Positions 37,558 to 50,423 of a DNA stretch of 64,000 nt are shown here, one piece after another. Each line of letters starts with the position of its first letter. The stretch's first letter is position 1. The notes below the pieces were generated by a model. That model ran no database searches, was not told the DNA's origin, and saw only the letters and a program-made list of their open reading frames with translations. This DNA is from Methylicorpusculum oleiharenae (lineage in GTDB: Bacteria; Pseudomonadota; Gammaproteobacteria; Methylococcales; Methylomonadaceae): positions 5,176,492-5,240,491 of the forward strand of contig NZ_WUTY02000001.1 of the NCBI RefSeq assembly GCF_009828925.2. Reading direction: 5' to 3'. Made by a program: the position numbers and the translations under genes.

Positions 37558-38280
37558 TTACCTGGTTTTTACGGTGAAATTTATTTTGTGATAAATCCTA
37601 CCCTGCTGATCTATCAACCTGACCGACCAGTTTCCCTCGGCCGCAGGAGTAAACAGTTTGCTGGTTGAAACTCGCCAATGATCCTGCTTAACCAGTATGG
37701 GGGTTCTTAACTTTTCTTTTCCGTTGTGCAGCCACTGATGGTAAAGCTTTAAGCCTTTCATGTTGAAAAGCTCGGTATAATAAAATATACCTGTTGCTTT
37801 GCTTTTGGCCACTCTTATTGGAGAGACCACTTCATCCATGGGTTGATTATCATGAATACCCGAAGTTAATGAAGCTCGCGCAACTCTATACTGTTTTTGG
37901 GATGACGGGTCTGAGACCATGCTTTCAACCTGTGACTCTGTATTTTGATTTGCTGGGGACAAATTAACTGGAGGGCTTTTATCTGCTGCATTATCTTGAT
38001 TAAGTACACCCTTTTCATCTTCAGACTTTGGCGTCTGGACGTCAGTATCATCTAAAAACTCGGCTTCAGTTTTTATACCTTGAAGCTCATTATTTTCCGG
38101 TTGACTGTTATCCAGATAAACATAAGGCAAAACGATAAGCAGTAAAATCAAAGACGAGACAATCAATATACGTTTAATATTCCATTCTGTTATTTGAATT
38201 TCATCATTAAGCTGATTTGTATTTTTACCCGCTTTATTGGGATGATTTATTTTTATGATTATTTTCTTTTGCTCTGCCAT
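37558..38280 (-). CDS. DUF2914 domain-containing membrane protein
   Basis: I use the ATG at 38280 (MAEQKKIIIKINH) because AGGAG sits just upstream; 240 residues. One transmembrane helix (about 37-55: ILIVSSLILLLIVLPYVYL), then a Ser/Gln/Asn-rich periplasmic linker (about 60-130), then the DUF2914 domain (about 135-240): VARASLTSGIHD, YYTELFNMKGLKLYHQWLHNG, WRVSTSKLFTPAAEGNWSVRL. This beta-sandwich-like domain recurs in proteobacterial envelope proteins of unknown role. Confidence 0.82.
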   Translation of the reverse strand: MAEQKKIIIKINHPNKAGKNTNQLNDEIQITEWNIKRILIVSSLILLLIVLPYVYLDNSQPENNELQGIKTEAEFLDDTDVQTPKSEDEKGVLNQDNAADKSPPVNLSPANQNTESQVESMVSDPSSQKQYRVARASLTSGIHDNQPMDEVVSPIRVAKSKATGIFYYTELFNMKGLKLYHQWLHNGKEKLRTPILVKQDHWRVSTSKLFTPAAEGNWSVRLIDQQGRIYHKINFTVKTR

Positions 38281-38825
38281 AACACCGCTCCTATCCATTA
38301 CCTTTCGAGATTTGGCAACAACCAACCCATTCATTTTTCTTTCAATATAACATCTATTTGTTAATACTCATACAGACCAAAAGTCAACGCTTATAAGCAA
38401 AACAATGGAATTATCAATAAGCATCCATCCAAAATAATCTCTCTATTTCTGATTGAGAGTTATAGCGTCGAAAGTTTACTGTTTCTTACAACTCAGCCTT
38501 CAACTGAAAAAATACTGATCGGCTATAAATTGACCTGACATTGAAAAGTATTACAGGGTAAATAAATTTTCTGGACACTTAAAAATCAGCTTATATATAT
38601 GAGGTCATAGACCAAAGAGATCGACCAATATCGACAATTTTAACTTGCGGCTTTTAGCAATCCGTATTCAGTCTGGATCAGGATGATTTTAAAATCAAAA
38701 AATACGCTAATCCCTTCACGTGAAGCTCTAACATTTTTCATATGTTTGTGGATTTTAACGTTTGGTAATATAACATTTTCGACCTAAGATAGGCCCAACT
38801 GCTAAAGAATTAACGGAATACATCA
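38281..38825. other. Divergent intergenic region upstream of sucA
   Basis: 545 bp, AT-rich, divergent. It should hold the sucA operon promoter; I find no convincing -35/-10 pair, CRP site or gene. Confidence 0.4.
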
Positions 38826-41654
38826 ATGAGCGACCTCCTTAAACTGTTTCGAGAATCTTCATCCTTGTACGGCAGCAATGCCAATTTTATAGAAGAGTTG
38901 TATGAACAATATCTTCAGGACCCGGACTCAGTCGAAGATAGCTGGAAACAAAAGTTCGGCCATATTCGAAGCGACTCTATTCAGGAAACAGCGCATAGCC
39001 CAATCATCGAACGCTTCGCTTCATTAGCCCAACAATCTCAGGGCCGGCTAGCCAAATTACAAGGCTTTACGGAGCAGAGTGTCAAAAAGCAGTCGGCGGT
39101 CGCACGCCTGATTAATCACTATCGGGTTCGTGGTCATCAGATTGCAACGAATAATCCTTTACACACTACAACTCCGTATTTTCCTGATTTGGATCCTGCC
39201 TACTATGGATTGACTGAACTGGACATGGACACGTTGTTCGACACAGGAACGTTGTACGGCGTTGACCGGCTCCCCTTAAGAGATATTATTACCACTCTAA
39301 AAGAAATTTATTGCGGCAATATCGGAACAGAGTACATGCATATTGTCGACACCGATATGAAACGCTGGATTAAAAACCGGCTGGAAGGCGCCAAGATTCA
39401 CCATAAACTGTCGGCCGACGAACAAATGTCGACACTTTTATTTCTGACCGCTGCAGAAGGCATAGAAAAATACCTGCACAATACTTTTGTAGGCCAAAAA
39501 CGCTTTTCACTGGAAGGTGGCGAATCATTAATTCCTATCTTGGACAACATCCTCCAACGAGCAGGTGAGAAGCAAACGAAGGAGGTTGTGATCGGAATGG
39601 CGCATCGCGGCCGATTGAATGTCCTGGTCAACATTCTCGGAAAAAATCCAGCCAAGTTGTTTGAGGAATTTAAAGGCATACACATTCCCGCACCCGGGAT
39701 GAATTCCGGTGATGTTAAATATCACATGGGGTTTTCTTCCGACATAGTTACGCCTGGCGGACCGATTCATGTGACATTGGCATTTAACCCTTCGCATCTG
39801 GAGATTATCAACCCTGTAGTGGAAGGATCGGTCAGAGCAAGACAAGACAGAGACCCCAGAGCTGACAGCCATAACACTATTTTACCGATTCTGATTCATG
39901 GCGATGCCGCGTTCGCAGGACAGGGCGTTGTGATGGAAACACTCAACATGGCAGGAACGCGCGGCTTTTCAACCGGCGGAACCGTTCATATTGTGGTGAA
40001 TAACCAAATCGGCTTTACCACCAGCAACCCGGCCGACGCCAGATCCACGCTTTATTGTACAGACGTGGCCAACATGGTTCAGATTCCTGTTTTCCATGTC
40101 AACGGCGATGATCCCGAAGCGGTTTTATTTGTCGCAAAAATGGCGCTGGATTTTCGCATGACGTTTAACAAGGATGTGGTGATTGACCTCATTTGTTACC
40201 GCCGACTAGGCCATAACGAAGCGGACGAACCGGCGACGACCCAACCACTGATGTACAAATACATCAGGAACCGGCCAACGACACGCCATATATTTGCCAA
40301 TAAGCTGATTGAAGACGGCGTAATTTCCAAAGAAGATGCCACTCGAATTGAACAGGACTATGTCCGGAAACTCGAATCGGGCCAAGTCGTCTCCAGGCCG
40401 ATTGCCACTGAAAAAGTCTATTCTTATTCGGCCATATGGGATAAATACCTGAATAAAAAATGGACTCAAGCCTGCAAAACCGCGGTCTCCCTGGACGTGA
40501 TACGTTTTTGCAACAAACAATTACAACTATTGCCCACCGGTTTTGAATTGCACCCTCGGGTCGGCAAAATAATGGACAGCCGGAGAAAAATGGCCGCTGG
40601 CGCACTCCCGTTAGATTGGGGATTTGCCGAAAATATGGCTTATGCAACCTTGGCTATGGAAAAATATAATGTCAGATTAACAGGACAGGATGTTGGCCGG
40701 GGCACGTTTTTCCACCGCCATGCCGTTCTTCACAATCAAATCGACGGCAGCACTTATCAGCCACTCAGCCATCTGGATCCCAATCAGGGTCGTGTTCAGA
40801 TTTATGACTCTTTGCTTTCAGAAGAGGCGGTATTAGGCTTCGAATACGGTTACAGTTCAACCACCCCCGACTGCCTGGTCATTTGGGAAGCGCAATTCGG
40901 TGATTTCGCAAACGGCGCGCAAGTAGTAATTGACCAGTTCATTACCTCCGGAGAAACCAAGTGGGGCCGCCTCAGCGGCCTGGTCATGTTGTTGCCCCAT
41001 GGATATGAAGGTCAAGGCCCGGAGCATTCATCCGCACGACTTGAACGGTATATGCAGCTCTGTGCCGAACATAATATCCAGGTTTGCACGCCAACGACGC
41101 CGGCTCAAATCTTCCACCTGTTGCGCCGCCAGATGATCAGAACATACCGCAAACCCCTGATCATTATGAGCCCCAAAAGTCTTTTGAGACACAAGCTGGC
41201 CGTATCTACACTTGAGGACCTGTCCAAAGGTAAATTCCAGACAATCATCAGCGAAACTGATTCGATAAACCCAAAAAACGTAAAGCGAATGGTGCTCTGT
41301 GCCGGGAAGGTTTATTTCGATTTACTGGAAACCCGCCGTGAAACTCATACTGAAGATGTCGCGATAGTGCGTATCGAACAACTTTATCCTTTTCCTGACA
41401 AACGGTTTAAAGATGAAATCGCTAAATATCCAAATCTTGAACTGATGATTTGGTGCCAGGAAGAACCCAAAAACCAAGGCGCCTGGTATCAAATCAGGCA
41501 TCATTTCGTCGATACGCTTGCTACTCAAATCAACTTGCAATATGCTGGCAGAGCGGCCTCCGCTTCGCCGGCCGTTGGTAATTTTAAAAAGCATCTCGAA
41601 CAACAAAAACAAGTCGTAGAATCCGCTTTATTCGGTAACTACAAAGGAAAATAA
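38826..41654 (+). CDS. sucA: 2-oxoglutarate dehydrogenase E1 component
   Basis: The thiamine-diphosphate subunit that decarboxylates 2-oxoglutarate and passes succinyl to lipoyl-E2. At 942 aa it aligns end to end with E. coli SucA (933). Visible landmarks: [13 protein letters not shown] near the N-terminus, [106 protein letters not shown] and [10 protein letters not shown]. No key residue looks lost. sucB follows after 1 bp. Methanotroph SucA homologues exist although enzyme activity has often not been detected. Confidence 0.97.
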
Positions 41655-41655
41655 C

Positions 41656-42942
41656 ATGACCATTGAAGTCCGCGTTCCCGCTCTTCCGGAATCAGTTGCC
41701 GATGCAACGCTTATAAACTGGCACAAAAAACCCGGTGATTGGGTCAATAAAAATGAAAACCTTGTTGATCTTGAGACAGATAAAGTCATTCTTGAAGTAC
41801 CCTCACCCAACTCAGGAATATTGAGCCAGATTGTCAAAGAAGATGGCGCCCTCGTTTTCAGTAATGATGTCCTGGCAATACTGGACACTGAAGCCTCTTC
41901 AACCTCATCCGACACCAGCCCTGCTGAAAATAAGGCAGAAGCCGTTATTGCACCGGCATCTGCGGCAAGCCCTGAAAAGATGGTTGAACAACCCGCATCC
42001 ACAGCCGCCCAATCTTTGGAGGCCCATCTGAGCCCTGCCGTTCGCCGCCTGATCGTCGAGAAAAACATTGATCCAGCGCAAATCAAAGGCTCAGGCAAAC
42101 ATGGACGGCTGACTAAAAACGACGTTATTGAATATTTGAGTGATGAACCGCCTATAGAGCAACGGCCTATGCCGGTCAGCCCTATTGAACCTGAAAAGCC
42201 CATCGCACCGATAGAAGTGAAGACGGTAGCCGCTGCCGGCATTCGTCCCGAGCAACGAGTGCCTATGACTCGGCTGAGAGCAAAAATTGCCGAACGCTTA
42301 TTACAGGCTCAACAAAATGCCGCCATGTTAACCACTTTTAATGAGGTTAACATGCATAACGTCATGGAGCTTAGAAATCAATACAAAGGCCGTTTTGAAG
42401 ATAAACATAAAATCAAGCTGGGTTTTATGTCATTTTTTGTTAAAGCCTCTATTGAAGCTTTGAAAAAGTTTCCAGCAGTGAACGCCTCAATCGACGGAAA
42501 CGACATCATTTATCATGGCTATTACGACATCGGCATCGCTGTATCAACACCCCGAGGCCTGATCGTCCCTGTTTTACGCGATGCGGATCAACTGGATTTT
42601 GCCGGCATTGAAAAAAGTATTGCCGATTACGGTAAAAAGGCCAAAGAAGGCAACATCAGCGTGGATGACCTGACGGGAGGCACTTTTACTATTACCAATG
42701 GTGGCATCTTCGGATCAATGCTCTCAACTCCCATCCTAAATCCGCCTCAATGCGCGATTTTAGGCATGCATGCTATAAAAGAGCGGCCAGTCGTTGAAAA
42801 TGGTGAAATAATGATCCGCCCCATCATGTATCTGGCCTTGTCCTACGATCATCGACTAGTCGACGGTCGTGAAGCAGTGCAATTCCTGGCTACTATCAAA
42901 GAATGTCTAGAATCGCCTGCTCATCTGCTTCTAAATATTTAA
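41656..42942 (+). CDS. sucB: Dihydrolipoyllysine succinyltransferase (E2 of OGDH)
   Basis: E2 carries succinyl groups on a lipoyl-lysine and transfers them to CoA. The 428-aa protein has one lipoyl domain (about 1-75) with the modified Lys in [14 protein letters not shown], an Ala/Pro linker, the peripheral subunit-binding domain (about 125-160: [19 protein letters not shown]) and the catalytic domain ending with the active-site [16 protein letters not shown]. All catalytic positions are intact. Between sucA (1 bp) and lpd (13 bp). Confidence 0.97.
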
Positions 42943-42955
42943 ACGGTATATTGCC

Positions 42956-44392
42956 ATGTCAAAATATGAATCAACGTACGATGTTATAGTGTTGGGCGCC
43001 GGTCCTGCTGGTTATGTGGCAGCTATTAGAGCGGCGCAATTGGGCTTAAAAACAGCTTGCGTTGATAACTGGATGAGCCCTGACGGTAAAACCAGTTTGG
43101 GCGGAACTTACATAAATGCAGGCTGTATTTCATCAATGGCGCTTTTGGAATCTGCCAAAATCTACCATCAGATTCGGCATGACATCAAAGACCACGGTAT
43201 ATCCGTAGATAATATCAGCCTTGATGTTCCTAAAATGATTGCCCGCAAAGACAAAAAAGTCGATATGCTCAGCAAGCAAATCAAGCAGGTTTTTGCTGAT
43301 AACGGCATTGATTTTATTCATGGCTCAGGCAAACTGATGAATGCCCGGCAAGTTTCGGCAACACCTCCTAACGGCGGCAAACCGATTATTCTTAATGCAA
43401 AAAATGTGATCCTGGCGACCGGGTCTTCACCCATTGAACTTAACTGTGCGGCTATAGACAACGATGTCATCATCGATTCGACTGCAGCGCTGAGCCTGCA
43501 AACCGTCCCAAAAAAGCTAGGTATCATAGGTGCAGGCATCATTGGCCTTGAGATTGGCGGAATCTGGAATAAACTGGGCTCAGACGTCACACTGCTGGAA
43601 GCCCAGGAAATATTCCTGCATGTAACCGATCAACAAATATCACTGGAAGCCTACAAAATTTATACCGATCAAGGTTTAGATCTGAGAATGGGCACCCGGG
43701 TTATTTCTGCAAAACGATCTAAAGATAAGGTAATCGTCGAATATCAGGATCAAGAGGGTAATCACACCTTGAAACTGGATAAACTGATTGTCGCTTCCGG
43801 ACGAAAACCCAATTCCGAAAATATTGCTGCACCTGAAGCAGAACTGGTTTTAGATGAAAATGGTTACATTCATGTCGATGAAAAATGCTGCACCACTGTC
43901 CCAGGTGTCTATGCCATTGGCGATTTGACCTTACTCGGCCCGATGCTGGCTCATAAGGGACTGGAGGAAGGCGTTTTTGTTGCCGAGCAAATTGCAAACA
44001 TGGAAACACCTATTAACTACGATATTATCCCGAGTGTTATCTACACGGATCCGGAAATCGCCTGGGTGGGCCATACCGAACAGGCCGTTCAAGCCATGGG
44101 TATTAAATACAATACCGGTGTATTCCCACTGAAAGCCAATGGCAGGGCAGAAGCCATTGACAAAACGGAAGGCCTGGTCAAAATCATCACCAACGCTGAA
44201 ACCGATATAATCATGGGCGTCCACATCATCGGAATAAATGCATCCGAATTAATCGCAGAAGCTGTTTTGGCAATGGAGTTTTCAGCCAGCTCGGAAGATT
44301 TGGCCAGAACAATTCATGCGCACCCGACCATTTCCGAGGTCCTCCATGAAGCCGCATTAGCCATTGACAACCGTTCACTGCACTTACCTTAA
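42956..44392 (+). CDS. lpdA: Dihydrolipoamide dehydrogenase-like protein lacking the first redox cysteine
   Basis: By sequence a full-length E3 (478 aa): FAD motif VLGAGPAGYVAAIRAAQLG, NAD motif IGAGIIGLEIGGIW, second FAD motif GVYAIGDLT, and the C-terminal dyad HAHPTISEVLHEA. However, the redox motif normally GGTCLNVGCIPSK reads GGTYINAGCISSM. Tyr52 (codon TAC at 43109-43111) replaces the interchange cysteine, Cys57 is kept, Pro becomes Ser and the following Lys becomes Met61. The disulfide that oxidises dihydrolipoamide cannot form, so normal E3 activity is not expected. Operon position after sucAB argues that it descends from the OGDH E3; a second, canonical lpd elsewhere may serve the complexes. 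Confidence 0.9.
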   Translation: MSKYESTYDVIVLGAGPAGYVAAIRAAQLGLKTACVDNWMSPDGKTSLGGTYINAGCISSMALLESAKIYHQIRHDIKDHGISVDNISLDVPKMIARKDKKVDMLSKQIKQVFADNGIDFIHGSGKLMNARQVSATPPNGGKPIILNAKNVILATGSSPIELNCAAIDNDVIIDSTAALSLQTVPKKLGIIGAGIIGLEIGGIWNKLGSDVTLLEAQEIFLHVTDQQISLEAYKIYTDQGLDLRMGTRVISAKRSKDKVIVEYQDQEGNHTLKLDKLIVASGRKPNSENIAAPEAELVLDENGYIHVDEKCCTTVPGVYAIGDLTLLGPMLAHKGLEEGVFVAEQIANMETPINYDIIPSVIYTDPEIAWVGHTEQAVQAMGIKYNTGVFPLKANGRAEAIDKTEGLVKIITNAETDIIMGVHIIGINASELIAEAVLAMEFSASSEDLARTIHAHPTISEVLHEAALAIDNRSLHLP

Positions 44393-44536: not shown

Positions 44537-46822
44537 ATGAGTGACCAACCCCTTCACATCAGACTCAGCCGTAAGACTCATAATACCTGCTTCCAGGCAG
44601 CGCTGATCAGTTTGATGGGAATAGTTCTAAGTTTGAGTCCATTGGGCGCTTATTTTGAAGAAGAAATGGGCCTCGCCTGGTTATTCCATATGAGAGGCCC
44701 TGTTACCCCTCCCGAAGAGGTAGTCATTGTCAGCATTGACAAATCCTCTGCAGAAATCTTGCGCTTACCGGACGACCCTGAAAAATGGCCGCGTTCTTAT
44801 TATGCCCAACTGATAAATAAACTGAATCAGCAAAGGCCCTCGATCATTGGTTTTAATATCATTTTTGAGGAAAGCAGGGATGCCGAAAGCGATTTGATGC
44901 TCGCTCAAGCGATGAAAGAAGGCCGCAACATTGTGCTGAGCAATTATTTAAAACAAAGCACTCTTTCTTCCATCGGACCTTTAAACCAGTTCAGATACGA
45001 AACCATCATAGAACCGATTCCCATCTTGAATCAGGTCGCATTGGGAACTGCGCCATTTCCTCTCCCCAAATCATCATCCAGCATCAAACAATTCTGGGCG
45101 TTTAAAAGCAGCGCCGGCGATATCGCCACATTTCCAGTCGCCGTGTTCCAATCTCATCTGCTGAAACAGGCTTACCCGGCAATTTTGGAACTGATCAAAA
45201 CAACAGCACCGGAACTTTCCGCTCAATTTCCTCCTGATTTTGAAGGGTTGGTAAACACTCAGGATAATTTTGAAACCATACAAATCGTCCAATCAGTATT
45301 AAGCAAACAGAGATTGACAGATGACGTTCCCCATTCATCATCTGCTATCAAAGCTACACAGGGAAATGCCCACCTTTTAAAATCCTGGGCTGCCTTGCTT
45401 AAAGAAAATGACAGTCTGCTGCTTAATCATTATGGAAAAGCCGGCACCCTTACCACAATCCCTTTTTATCAGGCATTAGTCAGTGACATACTGAACCCCG
45501 ATCTTTTTAGCAACAAGATTGTCCTGATCGGTTACTCAGAAAATATCATGGAAGAAAAAAACCGCGGATTTTACACCGTCTATTCTGAACAGGACGGCAG
45601 CACGATAAGCCCCATTGAACTTGCTGCAACTGCAATTGCCAATTTACTCGAGCATAGCTGGCTCAAAGCCCTACCCGTTGCTTATCAGCTGGCTTTGCTG
45701 GTTTTATGGAGCATGTTCTTATCTCTGGCCTGCCGGTTTTGTTCTTTTTCGGTCTTATTAGCCGTTATTGCATCATCATCCGCCGCTTACCTCAGTCTCG
45801 CCAGTTACTGCTTTAACCAGCATTACTTATGGCTGCCTTTATTCATTCCGATTGTTGTTCAAGCGCTTTCAGTTATCGTCACCGCGGCGGTTGGACATTA
45901 TTTAGAGGGAAAGCGCGAACACAAAAATATGTTTAACGCATTCAGCCGCTATGTACCCTCAGACATGGTAAATAAAATGGCCGGCCACGGCAGTCTTGAC
46001 GGTTTAAACAGTCTGGGTGAGCTTATCAATGGCGTCTGCATGGCCAGCGACGCAGGGCAATACACATCCTTGTCCGAGTCCTTGTCCCCTAAAGCCCTAA
46101 GCACGTTGATGAATCATTACTACGGCACTTTATTCCCGGAAGTGCAGCAACACGGAGGCATGATTTCCGACGTAATTGGCGATGCGATGCTGGCAATTTG
46201 GGCTAAATCGGATCATAACGACAAAGCGTTGAGAACCAGGGCCTGTCAAGCCGCTTTGGCTATTCAACAGGCGGTCGACAGGTTTAACCGCTCTCAACCC
46301 CACACACTCAACACTCGGCTTGGGCTTCATTACGGTGAAATGCACCTGGGCAACGTCGGATCAACTGATCATTTTGAATACCGGGCTGTCGGCGATGTTG
46401 TTAATACCGCAACCCGCATAGAAGGACTAAACAAAATCCTGGGCACCCGCATTTTAGTTACAAACGAGGTTGTCCATGATCTTGATCATTTTATAAAGCG
46501 GGAACTGGGGCTTTTTATTCTCAAAGGCAAAACCCACCCCGTGTGTGTCTATGAATTAATCGGTTTAAATTTATCCGGCCTTGTAAATCCCGCGGATAGA
46601 GCCAAAGATTTTGAAAACGCCCTGCATTTATTTCAGTCTTATCAATGGACTCAGGCTCATGATTCATTTTTAGCAATAGCCGAAAGGTATCCGGATGATG
46701 GGCCTGCTCGTTTTTATTTAAATTACCTCACACATCAACCCGCCCCATCAGAAGATCTAATCATTGATTTCAAACAAAAAAGCGTCATCGACTTAGGTAA
46801 TATTACCACTGCCTTGCAATAG
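44537..46822 (+). CDS. CHASE2-domain class III nucleotide cyclase
   Basis: A 761-aa membrane receptor. One N-terminal helix (about 20-40) is followed by a periplasmic CHASE2 sensor (about 45-370, with VIVSIDKSSAEILRLPDDPEKWPRSYYA), then three helices (about 376-456) and a class III cyclase domain (about 495-640). Metal-binding aspartates are present (MASDAGQY and VIGDAMLAIW), as are the transition-state Asn and Arg (GDVVNTATRIEGL). The adenine-selecting Lys position reads Asp (SDVIGD) and the partner Asp reads Glu (FEYRAVGD), so ATP specificity is not certain. A helical repeat-like tail ends the protein. The following gene encodes a FecR-TPR-barrel protein. Confidence 0.88.
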   Translation: MSDQPLHIRLSRKTHNTCFQAALISLMGIVLSLSPLGAYFEEEMGLAWLFHMRGPVTPPEEVVIVSIDKSSAEILRLPDDPEKWPRSYYAQLINKLNQQRPSIIGFNIIFEESRDAESDLMLAQAMKEGRNIVLSNYLKQSTLSSIGPLNQFRYETIIEPIPILNQVALGTAPFPLPKSSSSIKQFWAFKSSAGDIATFPVAVFQSHLLKQAYPAILELIKTTAPELSAQFPPDFEGLVNTQDNFETIQIVQSVLSKQRLTDDVPHSSSAIKATQGNAHLLKSWAALLKENDSLLLNHYGKAGTLTTIPFYQALVSDILNPDLFSNKIVLIGYSENIMEEKNRGFYTVYSEQDGSTISPIELAATAIANLLEHSWLKALPVAYQLALLVLWSMFLSLACRFCSFSVLLAVIASSSAAYLSLASYCFNQHYLWLPLFIPIVVQALSVIVTAAVGHYLEGKREHKNMFNAFSRYVPSDMVNKMAGHGSLDGLNSLGELINGVCMASDAGQYTSLSESLSPKALSTLMNHYYGTLFPEVQQHGGMISDVIGDAMLAIWAKSDHNDKALRTRACQAALAIQQAVDRFNRSQPHTLNTRLGLHYGEMHLGNVGSTDHFEYRAVGDVVNTATRIEGLNKILGTRILVTNEVVHDLDHFIKRELGLFILKGKTHPVCVYELIGLNLSGLVNPADRAKDFENALHLFQSYQWTQAHDSFLAIAERYPDDGPARFYLNYLTHQPAPSEDLIIDFKQKSVIDLGNITTALQ

Positions 46823-47066: not shown

Positions 47067-50000
47067 ATGAACAGAATCGCTCAAGGTTACCTTTTATTAG
47101 TCCTTCTTACTTGCTCTTGTACGACCTGGGCGAAGGGGGACTGCGAGCAGTGGATCGCCAAATTGGCATCCGGACAGGGAAAGGTTGATATCCAGCATCC
47201 GAGTGATACACAGTGGCTATCAGTTAAACAGGAAGAAATTTTTTGTCCAGGTGATAAAATCCGGACCGGCAAAAGAAGCCGGGCAACATTATTACTGAGC
47301 AATCAAACCCTTGTCACGCTGGATCAAAATTCCACACTGATTTTTTCGCAGCCTGAAGAGGAAAATATTCCATGGCTTTTAAAGCTACTCCAAGGGTCCG
47401 GATTTTTTAGAAGCAGGCAGACACAACAACTGAATATCCATACGCCTTTTATCAATGCCGTCCATGAAGGTACGGAATTTCTGGTTGAAGTCGACGCAAC
47501 GCAAACCCAAATCAGTGTTTTTGACGGACAAGTCGCCGCTCAAAATGAGCTTGGCAAGATTTCCATACGTCAGGGCTTTACGGGGCTTGCCTCCGCTAAT
47601 CACCCCCCCCACATTCAAGCGTTAACGATAAAACCGGAAGATGCCGTGCAATGGTCTCTCTATTATCCGCCCATTATTGACGACTCATCCGGTGGCCGTT
47701 TTGCCGCTGACAACAATCTGATTCCGGCTTTGGAAGCTTATAGGCAAGGACATAGCTTTCAATCTCTTGCCGCTCTTGATGCGGTGCCGGCTGAACAGCA
47801 CAATGTCCATTATTTAACCTTGAAAGCCGCTCTTCTCCTTACCGTCGGCAGAGTCGATGAAGCCGAGCCCTTGATTAATCAGGCACAACAACTTGAACCC
47901 ACCAGCAGTGATGCGTATGCGATAAAAGCCGTTATCGCTGTCGCAAAAAACCAGCAACAACAAGCATTGGAATGGGCCAATCAAGCCGTGACTGCCAATC
48001 CAGAATCTTCGATCGCAAAAATAGCCCAGTCCTATGCCTATCAATCCTTATTTAATATTGATGAGGCATTAAAATCCACTCAAGCAGCCGTTAGATTAGC
48101 CCCTGATAACGCCCTGGCCTGGGCAAGACTGACAGAATTACACCTCTCGATGAGCGACCAGGACGCGGCTCTTCTAGCCGCTCAAAAATCCAGTCAACTT
48201 AATCCTCACCTTGCCAGAACACAGACTCTTACCGGTTTTGCCAATTTGGCCCGGACCAACATAGAACGGGCAAAAGAAGACTTTGAACAGGCTTTGGCGC
48301 TTGACTCGTCCGACCCTTTGGCACGATTAGGGCTGGGTCTATCGAAAATCAGAAAAGGTGATATCGAAGCAGGAAAAACCGATCTGGAAACCGCAGTCAA
48401 TCTGGACCCCAACAATTCCGTTTTGCGCAGTTATCTCGGCAAAGCCTATTACGAATTGAGAAACTCGGACTTTGCGAGTACCGAATTTAAAATTGCGAAA
48501 GAAATGGACCCCAAAGATCCTACCCCCTGGTTTTATGATGCGATATTAAAGCAAACCACCAATCGGCCGGTTGAAGCGCTCCATGATATGCAACACGCAA
48601 TTGAATTGAATGATAATCGGGGCGTGTATCGATCAAGATTATTGCTGGACGAGGATTTAGCCGCCAGAAGCGCAAGCTTGGGTAGAATTTATAATGATTT
48701 GGGCTTCCAGGAGTTAGGTCTGCTGGAGGGATGGAAATCAGTCAACATTGATCCCACTAACTTTTCTGCACACCGGCTAATGGCCGATAATTATTCCGTC
48801 TTACCCAGACATGAAATTGCGAAAGTCAGCGAATCGCTGCAAACTCAATTACTGCAGCCGATCAACATCACGCCGGTTTTACCTCAAATGGCGGAAACAA
48901 ATCTGAAAAATGTTGACCACCTAGGCCCTGGCAGCCTTTCCCTGAATGAATTTAATCCTTTGTTCGCCCGCAATGGTGTCGCCCTCAGAGCCTCTGGCAT
49001 TGCTGGAAGTCAGAACAGTTTAGGGGATGAAGTCATTCTATCGGGTTTATGGAATCAATTTTCCATAAACCTCAGCCAGTTTCATTATCAAACCGATGGC
49101 TACAGAACAAATGATCATATTAAGCAAAATCTCTATAGCGCGTTCACACAGATCGCGTTAACGCCCAGCACTAGCGTGCAACTCGAACTCCGAAAAAAAT
49201 CAACTGAATATGGCGATATAGCACAAAGAATAAATAATTTTCACCGGCCAAATTACCGCGATCTTTTCGACGAAGAAACTATCCGAGGGGGCCTTAAATT
49301 CTCCCCCAATAAAAGTCATACTGTTTTGTCATCTTTTATCTATAAACACGCCAAACAGCATACTTCAGATAATGAAAATTTCGATACGCTGACAATCCAT
49401 AATGACGATCGTACCAAAAGCAATGGCTATCAATTAGAGTCACAGTACTTATTTCATGGCGAACGCTTTAATTTGATTTCTGGCGCAGGGTATTCTAACC
49501 AGCCTTATAAACAAAATAACTTATTTCAAGCAACAGAAGAGGGTGAACTTATCTTCGTTGAACCCTTTACTGTTTCAGAAAAAATTGAATATCACAACTT
49601 TTATGCTTATACACCTATTGTATTAACTTCTTTTGCCAAAATGACTTTAGGCTTAAGTGTTGACACGCTTAATCAATCGGAGCAGGATCAAACACGAATA
49701 AACCCCAAAGTTGGTTTAATTCTCAACCCAACGGACTGGACAACGCTGCGTTACGCCTCATTTAGCACAATGAAACGCCCCGTATTATCGAACCAAACGC
49801 TGGAACCTACTCAGGTTGCTGGATTTAATCAATTTTTCGACGATACTAACGGAACATTTGCATGGCGGCACGGCATTGGTTTGGATCAACGATTGTCTAC
49901 TGACTTATTCGGAGGTGTGGAGTTAACTAAACGCACATTAACTGGAGGTGGCAGATCTGATCGCGATGAGTATTATCATCGAAGTTATCTAAATTGGACA

Positions 50001-50423
50001 CCTACTGTAAACCTGGTATTGAGTGCCGAGTATGGTTATGAGAATATTAAGAGAGACTATGTTAATGATACACAAGACTCTACCAATCCGGCAGAAACCC
50101 TAACTCACACTTTGCCGCTAAGTGTCGCTTATTTTATGGAAAGTGGCTTGTTTGCAAAAGTTACCAGTACCTATGTTAACCAAAAAGTAGATTTTGTGGC
50201 TGAAACAAGCGGCACGGATAGACTAGACAGTCAGTTTTGGAACACTGATTTTTCGATTGGCTACAGACTACCCAAAAGATATGGCTTGATTAAACTGTCT
50301 ATCAATAATATTTTTAACCATAAATTCGACTACCAAAGCCCTAATAGCGGAACGGGTGAACCCCTATCCTCACCCTATCAACCTGAAAGGTTTATCTCTT
50401 CAACTATTAACCTGGCTTTTTAA
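47067..50423 (+). CDS. FecR-TPR-outer-membrane beta-barrel fusion protein
   Basis: An 1118-aa exported protein combining three modules. A signal peptide (1 to about 22, ending CTTWA) leads into a FecR-type beta domain (about 35-170: PGDKIRTGKRSRATLLLSN, then LNIHTPFINAVHEGTEFLVEV, FDGQVAAQNELG). At least nine TPR-like helical hairpins follow (about 235-590; ALALDSSDPLARLGLGLSK, TAVNLDPNNSVLRSYLGKAY). From about 630 (LNEFNPLFARNG) the sequence is aromatic beta-strand rich and ends in STINLAF, the terminal Phe expected of a BAM-assembled barrel. No TonB box or plug is obvious, and no ECF sigma factor is nearby. Function unknown. Confidence 0.85.
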   Translation: MNRIAQGYLLLVLLTCSCTTWAKGDCEQWIAKLASGQGKVDIQHPSDTQWLSVKQEEIFCPGDKIRTGKRSRATLLLSNQTLVTLDQNSTLIFSQPEEENIPWLLKLLQGSGFFRSRQTQQLNIHTPFINAVHEGTEFLVEVDATQTQISVFDGQVAAQNELGKISIRQGFTGLASANHPPHIQALTIKPEDAVQWSLYYPPIIDDSSGGRFAADNNLIPALEAYRQGHSFQSLAALDAVPAEQHNVHYLTLKAALLLTVGRVDEAEPLINQAQQLEPTSSDAYAIKAVIAVAKNQQQQALEWANQAVTANPESSIAKIAQSYAYQSLFNIDEALKSTQAAVRLAPDNALAWARLTELHLSMSDQDAALLAAQKSSQLNPHLARTQTLTGFANLARTNIERAKEDFEQALALDSSDPLARLGLGLSKIRKGDIEAGKTDLETAVNLDPNNSVLRSYLGKAYYELRNSDFASTEFKIAKEMDPKDPTPWFYDAILKQTTNRPVEALHDMQHAIELNDNRGVYRSRLLLDEDLAARSASLGRIYNDLGFQELGLLEGWKSVNIDPTNFSAHRLMADNYSVLPRHEIAKVSESLQTQLLQPINITPVLPQMAETNLKNVDHLGPGSLSLNEFNPLFARNGVALRASGIAGSQNSLGDEVILSGLWNQFSINLSQFHYQTDGYRTNDHIKQNLYSAFTQIALTPSTSVQLELRKKSTEYGDIAQRINNFHRPNYRDLFDEETIRGGLKFSPNKSHTVLSSFIYKHAKQHTSDNENFDTLTIHNDDRTKSNGYQLESQYLFHGERFNLISGAGYSNQPYKQNNLFQATEEGELIFVEPFTVSEKIEYHNFYAYTPIVLTSFAKMTLGLSVDTLNQSEQDQTRINPKVGLILNPTDWTTLRYASFSTMKRPVLSNQTLEPTQVAGFNQFFDDTNGTFAWRHGIGLDQRLSTDLFGGVELTKRTLTGGGRSDRDEYYHRSYLNWTPTVNLVLSAEYGYENIKRDYVNDTQDSTNPAETLTHTLPLSVAYFMESGLFAKVTSTYVNQKVDFVAETSGTDRLDSQFWNTDFSIGYRLPKRYGLIKLSINNIFNHKFDYQSPNSGTGEPLSSPYQPERFISSTINLAF

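Follow-up and report, generated by a model that had tools for sequence, protein, structure and literature searches.

What is a dihydrolipoamide dehydrogenase (E3) for, once it has lost the cysteine that makes it one? In E3, the first cysteine of the active-site pair carries out the exchange with the sulfur of the lipoyl group, and its partner forms the charge-transfer complex with the flavin. The question is raised by the third gene of a sucA-sucB-lpd operon in Methylicorpusculum oleiharenae, part of a 64,000-nucleotide stretch of genomic DNA that was analyzed as a whole (the window). The gene is an open reading frame of 478 aa (42956–44392, + strand) whose active-site motif reads GGTYINAGCISSM. 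An initial annotation, made from the letters alone, had proposed that Tyr52 replaces the interchange cysteine in this protein and Met61 a conserved lysine. The codons bear this out, and the change extends well beyond the window: the first cysteine is absent from 40/40 rows of an alignment of the surrounding Methylococcales clade, versus 0/80 rows of canonical E3s. The features of the locus, in window coordinates, are these:

38826..41654, + strand: sucA, 2-oxoglutarate dehydrogenase (OGDH) E1; frame intact, Pfam E1_dh, Transket_pyr, OxoGdeHyase_C and 2-oxogl_dehyd_N above cut-off
41656..42942, + strand: sucB, E2 dihydrolipoyl succinyltransferase; Pfam Biotin_lipoyl, E3_binding and 2-oxoacid_dh above cut-off, and alignment
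42956..44392, + strand: E3-like flavoprotein without redox dithiol; open reading frame, TIGR01350, AlphaFold2 model with Foldseek
42995..43012, + strand: FAD-binding GAGPAG, Gly14/16/19; glycines 40/40 in the clade alignment
43109..43111, + strand: Tyr52 codon TAC, replacing the interchange cysteine; codon positions on the sequence
43124..43126, + strand: Cys57 codon TGT, second (charge-transfer) cysteine; present in the window protein, lost in 12/40 clade rows
43136..43138, + strand: Met61 codon ATG, replacing the conserved Lys; Met/Ile/Leu/Val in 39/40 clade rows
43529..43546, + strand: NAD-binding GAGIIG, Gly192/194/197; glycines 40/40 in the clade, Glu199 likewise
44321..44338, + strand: His456 to Glu461, the E3 catalytic dyad; intact in the window protein, 26/40 in the clade

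The E3-like gene had been placed directly after intact sucA and sucB, and so it lies: both frames are open, their Pfam domains score above cut-off, and the gaps are 1 base between sucA and sucB and 13 bases between sucB and the E3-like frame. By Pfam and alignment, SucB has the lipoyl motif ETDKV, an E3-binding domain and the motif DHRLVDG. Divergent to sucA lies a gene for a DUF2914 protein (Pfam; 37558–38334, − strand), and downstream of the operon are genes for a CHASE2-cyclase protein (44537–46822, +) and a FecR-TPR protein (47067–50423, +). Similar DUF2914 proteins (26–86%) recur at 22 further loci in the set searched, spread over ~20 genomes that all belong to the degenerate-E3 clade, and inspection by eye shows a similar start ahead of sucA in genome G017; their absence at canonical loci is not a fair test, because there is less DNA upstream of sucA there.

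The window protein has the FAD and NAD glycine motifs, the fold and the His-Glu dyad of an E3; it lacks the CxxxxC dithiol (Tyr52/Cys57) and the active-site lysine (Met61). It scores 482.5 bits against the dihydrolipoyl dehydrogenase model TIGR01350, above the cut-off of 408.8, and annotation based on this model would name the gene accordingly. Among solved structures, the E3s of Pseudomonas and Azotobacter are its best matches. An AlphaFold2 model (mean pLDDT 83.2) has P. aeruginosa LpdG as its top Foldseek match (TM 0.89), and pLDDT drops below 50 in segments 53–55 and 325–329, that is, at the altered site and at an inserted residue near the GD motif. Compared with the canonical OGDH E3s (P. 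aeruginosa LpdG, P. fluorescens and A. vinelandii E3), it is thus alike in fold, FAD/NAD motifs and position behind sucAB, at ~50% identity, but differs in having neither dithiol nor lysine, and in the inserted residue and a lost arginine near the GD motif. Another E3-like flavoprotein, the soluble transhydrogenase SthA/UdhA, has a dithiol site that is altered as well, and the window protein falls below the cut-off of the corresponding model (Si-specific transhydrogenase, NF003585; 292.1 bits vs 465). It falls below that of the NAD(P)H-quinone dehydrogenase model NF005883, too (252.7 vs 479), the model that covers LpdA of Mycobacterium tuberculosis.

Two other assemblies of the genus (G001 and G002) have the same motif as the window protein, which, with the clade-wide absence of the first cysteine, rules out a sequencing error or a mutation of the strain. 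The clade set of 40 rows includes three near-identical rows of the window’s genus and excludes the near-copies L054 and L078, which likewise lack the first cysteine; the canonical set of 80 rows leaves out the PDH-type L002 and L052 and probably contains one record twice (L045/L068). The broken L051 is excluded from every motif count, and one further alignment comparison used a clade set of 37 rows, without L010, L011 and L050. Among canonical operon-type rows, including a Cycloclasticus-type sister lineage, Cys52, Cys57, Lys61, His456 and Glu461 are each present in 80/80. In the clade, position 52 is Tyr in 24 rows, His in 9, Phe in 5, and Asn and Ser in one each. Position 57 is Cys in 28, Ser in 9, Gly in 2 and Asp in 1, and both cysteines are gone in 12/40; position 61 is Met in 19, Ile in 10, Leu in 7, Val in 3 and Lys in 1. 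The alignment of sucAB-linked lpd genes across Methylococcales that had been suggested as a check thus finds Cys52 in 0/40 clade rows and Lys61 in 1/40.

Other positions are held more firmly. The FAD glycines 14/16/19, the NAD glycines 192/194/197, Glu199, Gly322, Asp323, His333, His454 and Pro457 are conserved in 40/40 clade rows, and at position 215 Glu is retained in 35 rows, with Asp in the other 5. His456 is retained in 31/40 and the full His-Glu dyad in 26/40. It had been argued that the gene cannot be decaying since its dyad is intact; this is right for the window gene but not for the clade, where the dyad is not intact in 14/40 rows and the orthologue of one genome (G009) is broken. 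The histidine that is invariant across the 40 rows is His454, not the catalytic His456. Beside the GD motif, a one-residue insertion at 325 is found in 37/40 clade rows (it is missing in L036, L047 and L050) versus 0/80 canonical rows, and Arg327 is found in 79/80 canonical rows versus 0/40 clade rows. Because the residues of the FAD and NAD motifs and the fold are kept while the thiol residues vary, it is the residues of thiol-disulfide exchange that appear to have been given up in the clade. The earlier expectation that the normal E3 mechanism should be lost gains support in this way, the dithiol and lysine being gone clade-wide.

This loss apparently had a single origin. On a tree of 68 rows, with the active-site columns (47–64) removed, the 40 rows without the first cysteine form one side of one branch (SH-aLRT 99); the tree was made by a quick method, with no bootstrap and with 28 of the 80 canonical rows. 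The canonical rows of families f7 and f8 are the sister of the degenerate clade, L050 (from G052) sits on a long branch and is placed unsurely, and the second cysteine requires at least 7 changes. For independent losses elsewhere in the class, the degenerate DNA pattern GGT-[Y/F/H/L]-x-N-[A/V]-G matched 4/369 genomes (two of the same family, and two with unrelated sequences), and a reversed-pattern control also matched 3; because the pattern is narrow, losses outside the clade may exist.

The E3-like gene is under strong purifying selection in the window’s genus. For three pairs of this genus, dN/dS (NG86) is 0.040, 0.033 and 0.028, compared with 0.058, 0.082 and 0.088 for sucB and 0.026, 0.017 and 0.029 for sucA, which together with the open frame rules out a pseudogene in the window. 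Other clade pairs give 0.030–0.141 (8 pairs with finite dS, several of them near-saturated; 3 more have no finite dS), and canonical genes give 0.035–0.041 in f7/f8 (3 finite pairs) and 0.017–0.160 in Pseudomonas and Burkholderiales lpd (6 pairs, similar dS). Among the window, L139 and L140 the E3-like gene evolves more slowly than sucB, but the median ratio of its distance to that of sucB is 1.43 across the clade (378 pairs, 28 genomes) versus 1.01 in canonical genomes (325 pairs, 26 genomes), sets of unequal depth (median SucA distances of 0.33 and 0.58, respectively). By domain (35 clade rows, 29 of the 80 canonical rows), relative tree length is 1.50 in the clade versus 1.27 in canonical E3s for the FAD domain and 0.50 versus 0.81 for the central domain, and little changed for the NAD domain (0.98 vs 1.07) and the interface domain (0.65 vs 0.67). 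E2 docking occurs in the interface domain, whose relative constraint does not exceed that seen in canonical E3s, so this comparison lends docking no specific support. The invariant cofactor glycines and the low dN/dS nonetheless mark a protein under selection, and the lost catalytic residues mark one that should not carry out lipoamide chemistry.

The gene is widespread among relatives but not universal. A panel of 61 genomes (the source genome and 60 relatives) was searched with the protein (E 1e-60) and with SucA, and motifs were aligned. sucA is present in 59. Of these, 35 have an open orthologue without the first cysteine, one (G009) a broken orthologue, 7 (families f7 and f8) a canonical one, and 16 none at this threshold; 15 of the 16 have PDH-type genes alone, and G006, 77% complete, has nothing. 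The window’s own family, f1, accounts for 32 degenerate, 1 broken and 4 absent among 37 genomes, and f2, f5 and f6 have one degenerate gene each. Of the 80 best among the matches listed in a scan of named genomes, 73 are canonical (Pseudomonas, Halomonas, Burkholderiales, Competibacteraceae, Cycloclasticus and others); the other 7 are degenerate and include rows from Crenothrix polyspora and an uncultured Methylobacter. A search of plasmid proteins returned 111 records, every one below 60% identity. A pmoA-family gene occurs in 53/61 genomes, including the source genome; its presence alone does not separate degenerate from canonical, because four degenerate genomes (G005, G033, G037 and G040) have no match and 6 of the 7 canonical f7/f8 genomes have weaker ones.

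The order sucA-sucB-lpd is contiguous in 34/40 clade rows, and in 4 more sucB lies upstream, while sucA is either cut off or located elsewhere. The gene stands apart from both in G017 and G052, yet its frame is open, which speaks against a mere operon hitch-hiker there. In G017 (loci L153 and L186) the separate E3-like gene still reads FINAGCISSM, and its contig also carries an intact sucAB that no lpd follows, at a distance of 1.7 Mb as written or ~400 kb if the contig is circular. This separate gene adjoins an ORF that resembles a transposase by eye. In G009 the orthologue (L051, 4259–5667) is in three pieces behind open sucA and sucB. Because it is broken there, and absent from 16/59 genomes, the E3-like gene must be dispensable in places.

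From where, then, would the OGDH complex obtain a working E3? The second lpd gene for which a search of the source genome had been advised is there: two E2 genes score above cut-off, sucB and one other, and the latter adjoins a canonical lpd with the motif GGVCLNVGCIPSK. All 8 PDH-type lpd genes examined have this motif. A DNA pattern for canonical CxxxxC, which also picks up other disulfide reductases, matches in 60/61 genomes, and a GGVC-type match occurs in 58/61 (not in G006, G046 or G049). Two GGVC-type canonical E3 motifs per genome were seen in G016 and G024. Genomes with sucA but without an operon-type E3 must use the PDH-type E3, provided that OGDH works in them at all. Judging from gene content, OGDH quite probably draws on the PDH-type E3 in carriers of the E3-like gene as well. 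Elsewhere in the source genome, two loci (C1:2432625–2433467 and 4846782–4847624) have identical Pyr_redox_2 scores (171.7 bits, 944-aa frames), which looks like a recent duplication.

Judged by its residues, Irc15p of Saccharomyces cerevisiae is the closest characterized analogue of the window protein. It, too, is an E3 paralogue with the first cysteine changed to Tyr and the His-Glu dyad kept (PMC6296175), but its second cysteine is Ala and it arose by duplication in yeast, with a link to microtubules, whereas here the resident E3 of the sucAB operon has itself changed. The bacterial protein is an ancient parallel to Irc15p, with tyrosine at the same position, presumably reached independently. 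Irc15p is described as a FAD dimer that NADH reduces; it shows no activity with lipoamide, glutathione or cystine, accepts ferricyanide, DCPIP, MTT and menadione as substrates, and produces peroxide (PMC6296175). LpdA (Rv3303c) of M. tuberculosis resembles the window protein in being E3-like with one cysteine missing, but it also lacks the His-Glu dyad; the same source gives it as a quinone reductase that reduces no disulfides (PMC6296175). On the strength of the E3 mechanism and of the behavior of these two enzymes, we would be surprised if the window protein did not bind FAD, accept electrons from NADH and prove inactive with lipoamide.

The explanation that we favor, at a probability of about 0.52, is that the OGDH-operon gene encodes a pseudo-enzyme derived from E3 that docks on the OGDH complex beside an E3 borrowed from PDH. 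By tree and alignment, Cys52 and the lysine were lost once from an ancestral dihydrolipoamide dehydrogenase dedicated to OGDH, at or near the base of the methanotroph-containing Methylococcales clade. Without its dithiol, the protein should be unable to pass electrons from SucB-bound dihydrolipoyl to FAD, to go by the E3 mechanism and the characterized homologues, and the lipoyl groups of OGDH would be re-oxidized by the canonical E3 encoded beside the PDH-type E2, as gene content implies. The Tyr52 protein has been retained by purifying selection, with its fold and binding motifs, as a flavoprotein that would bind FAD and probably NAD(H). The weakest step is the site of action: the protein would sit on the E3-binding domain of SucB, next to the working E3, and could there adjust the assembly or activity of the complex. 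The tighter central domain, the invariant FAD and NAD residues, the E3_binding domain of SucB, the contiguity of the operon and the open gene away from it in G017 and G052 were counted in favor of the explanation as a whole; the interface-domain result, the faster evolution relative to sucB across the clade and the breakage or absence of the gene in places were counted against it. That the retained role lies at the OGDH complex is our best single guess, and an evenly balanced one.

The alternatives named at the outset—use of another E3, a new FAD/NAD enzyme, a structural subunit—all stay live. The protein could be a free-standing NADH:acceptor flavoenzyme (a diaphorase, quinone reductase or peroxide-forming oxidase) whose operon position is merely historical. 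We think this doubtful but far from negligible: the cofactor glycines are invariant while the residues of thiol chemistry vary, the frame is intact even where the gene has left sucAB (G017, G052), the insertion at 325 and the lost Arg327 would alter the surroundings of the flavin, and Irc15p and LpdA are precedents (PMC6296175), but sucA-sucB-lpd is contiguous in 34/40 rows, and neither the quinone dehydrogenase model nor that of the transhydrogenase is matched above its cut-off. Or E3 supply might have moved to the PDH-operon gene, leaving the OGDH-operon E3 a relic that is being lost lineage by lineage. The broken orthologue of G009, the 16/59 sucA-bearing genomes without one, the faster evolution relative to sucB (1.43 vs 1.01) and the seven or more changes of the second cysteine would all be expected of such a relic; dN/dS values of 0.028–0.040 in the window’s genus and 0.030–0.141 in other clade pairs (several with near-saturated dS), cofactor glycines kept in 40/40, and a position 52 that is Tyr, His or Phe in 38/40 rather than random letters would not, and we consider slow decay unlikely.

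That the protein is a lipoamide dehydrogenase still, by some unusual chemistry of Cys57 alone, strikes us as very improbable. Cys57 and the His-Glu dyad are indeed retained in the window and the nearest genera, but both cysteines are gone from 12/40 rows with open frames, Lys61 is lost in 39/40, and Irc15p, which has no dithiol, is reported to fail with lipoamide (PMC6296175). The docked pseudo-E3 that we prefer might, at its most ambitious, be an NADH-sensing brake on the methanotroph TCA cycle—a catalytically dead dimer, able to bind FAD and NAD(H), in competition with the canonical E3 over the docking domain of SucB. This is an unlikely elaboration, and we offer it as speculation.

Whether OGDH works in type I methanotrophs is disputed in print, and a full TCA cycle in these organisms is argued over because the OGDH genes are present and the activity undemonstrated (PMC5023229, PMC5802761). 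It is reported that in gammaproteobacterial methanotrophs the genes are there but activity was never demonstrated, as of 2015 (PMC5023229), that extracts of M. alcaliphilum 20ZR have OGDH ‘N.D.’ and PDH at 120–290 nmol/min/mg (PMC5802761), and that M. capsulatus Bath has no in-vitro OGDH activity (PMC8527097), the reaction being blocked in its model (PMC6288188). For Methylomicrobium buryatense 5GB1, on the other hand, the oxidative TCA cycle is said to be complete during growth on methane and to run little on methanol (PMC6456754, citing Fu 2017; repeated in PMC10602362). In Methylomonas DH-1, OGDH is highly expressed and the sole annotated 2-oxoglutarate route, and an sdh mutant accumulates succinate, with data not shown in the source (PMC6373157). 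In-vivo flux alone does not prove OGDH, because other routes from 2-oxoglutarate to succinate have been proposed; for 20ZR, succinate-semialdehyde dehydrogenase activity is described and a branched cycle with such routes favored (PMC5802761). The suggestion that the altered E3 leaves the complex inactive, and so explains the missing OGDH activity, is thus not established: 5GB1 (PMC6456754) and DH-1 (PMC6373157) stand against 20ZR (PMC5802761).

Among the titles and abstract openings of open-licence literature, a partial coverage that makes for a weak negative, there was no report of a missing cysteine in a methanotroph E3. What makes this E3 homologue without a dithiol notable is its place: in a large group of methane oxidizers, it is encoded by the E3 gene resident in the OGDH operon. 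Should the brake be real, the ratio and redox state of pseudo-E3 and canonical E3 would set OGDH flux, which would account for OGDH genes that are present and expressed, for activity that goes undetected in extracts, and for an oxidative cycle that is reported to run on methane but hardly on methanol. Brake or not, the OGDH complex of some thirty genera in one family acquires a concrete, testable molecular feature: the E3 encoded with it should not be its working E3.
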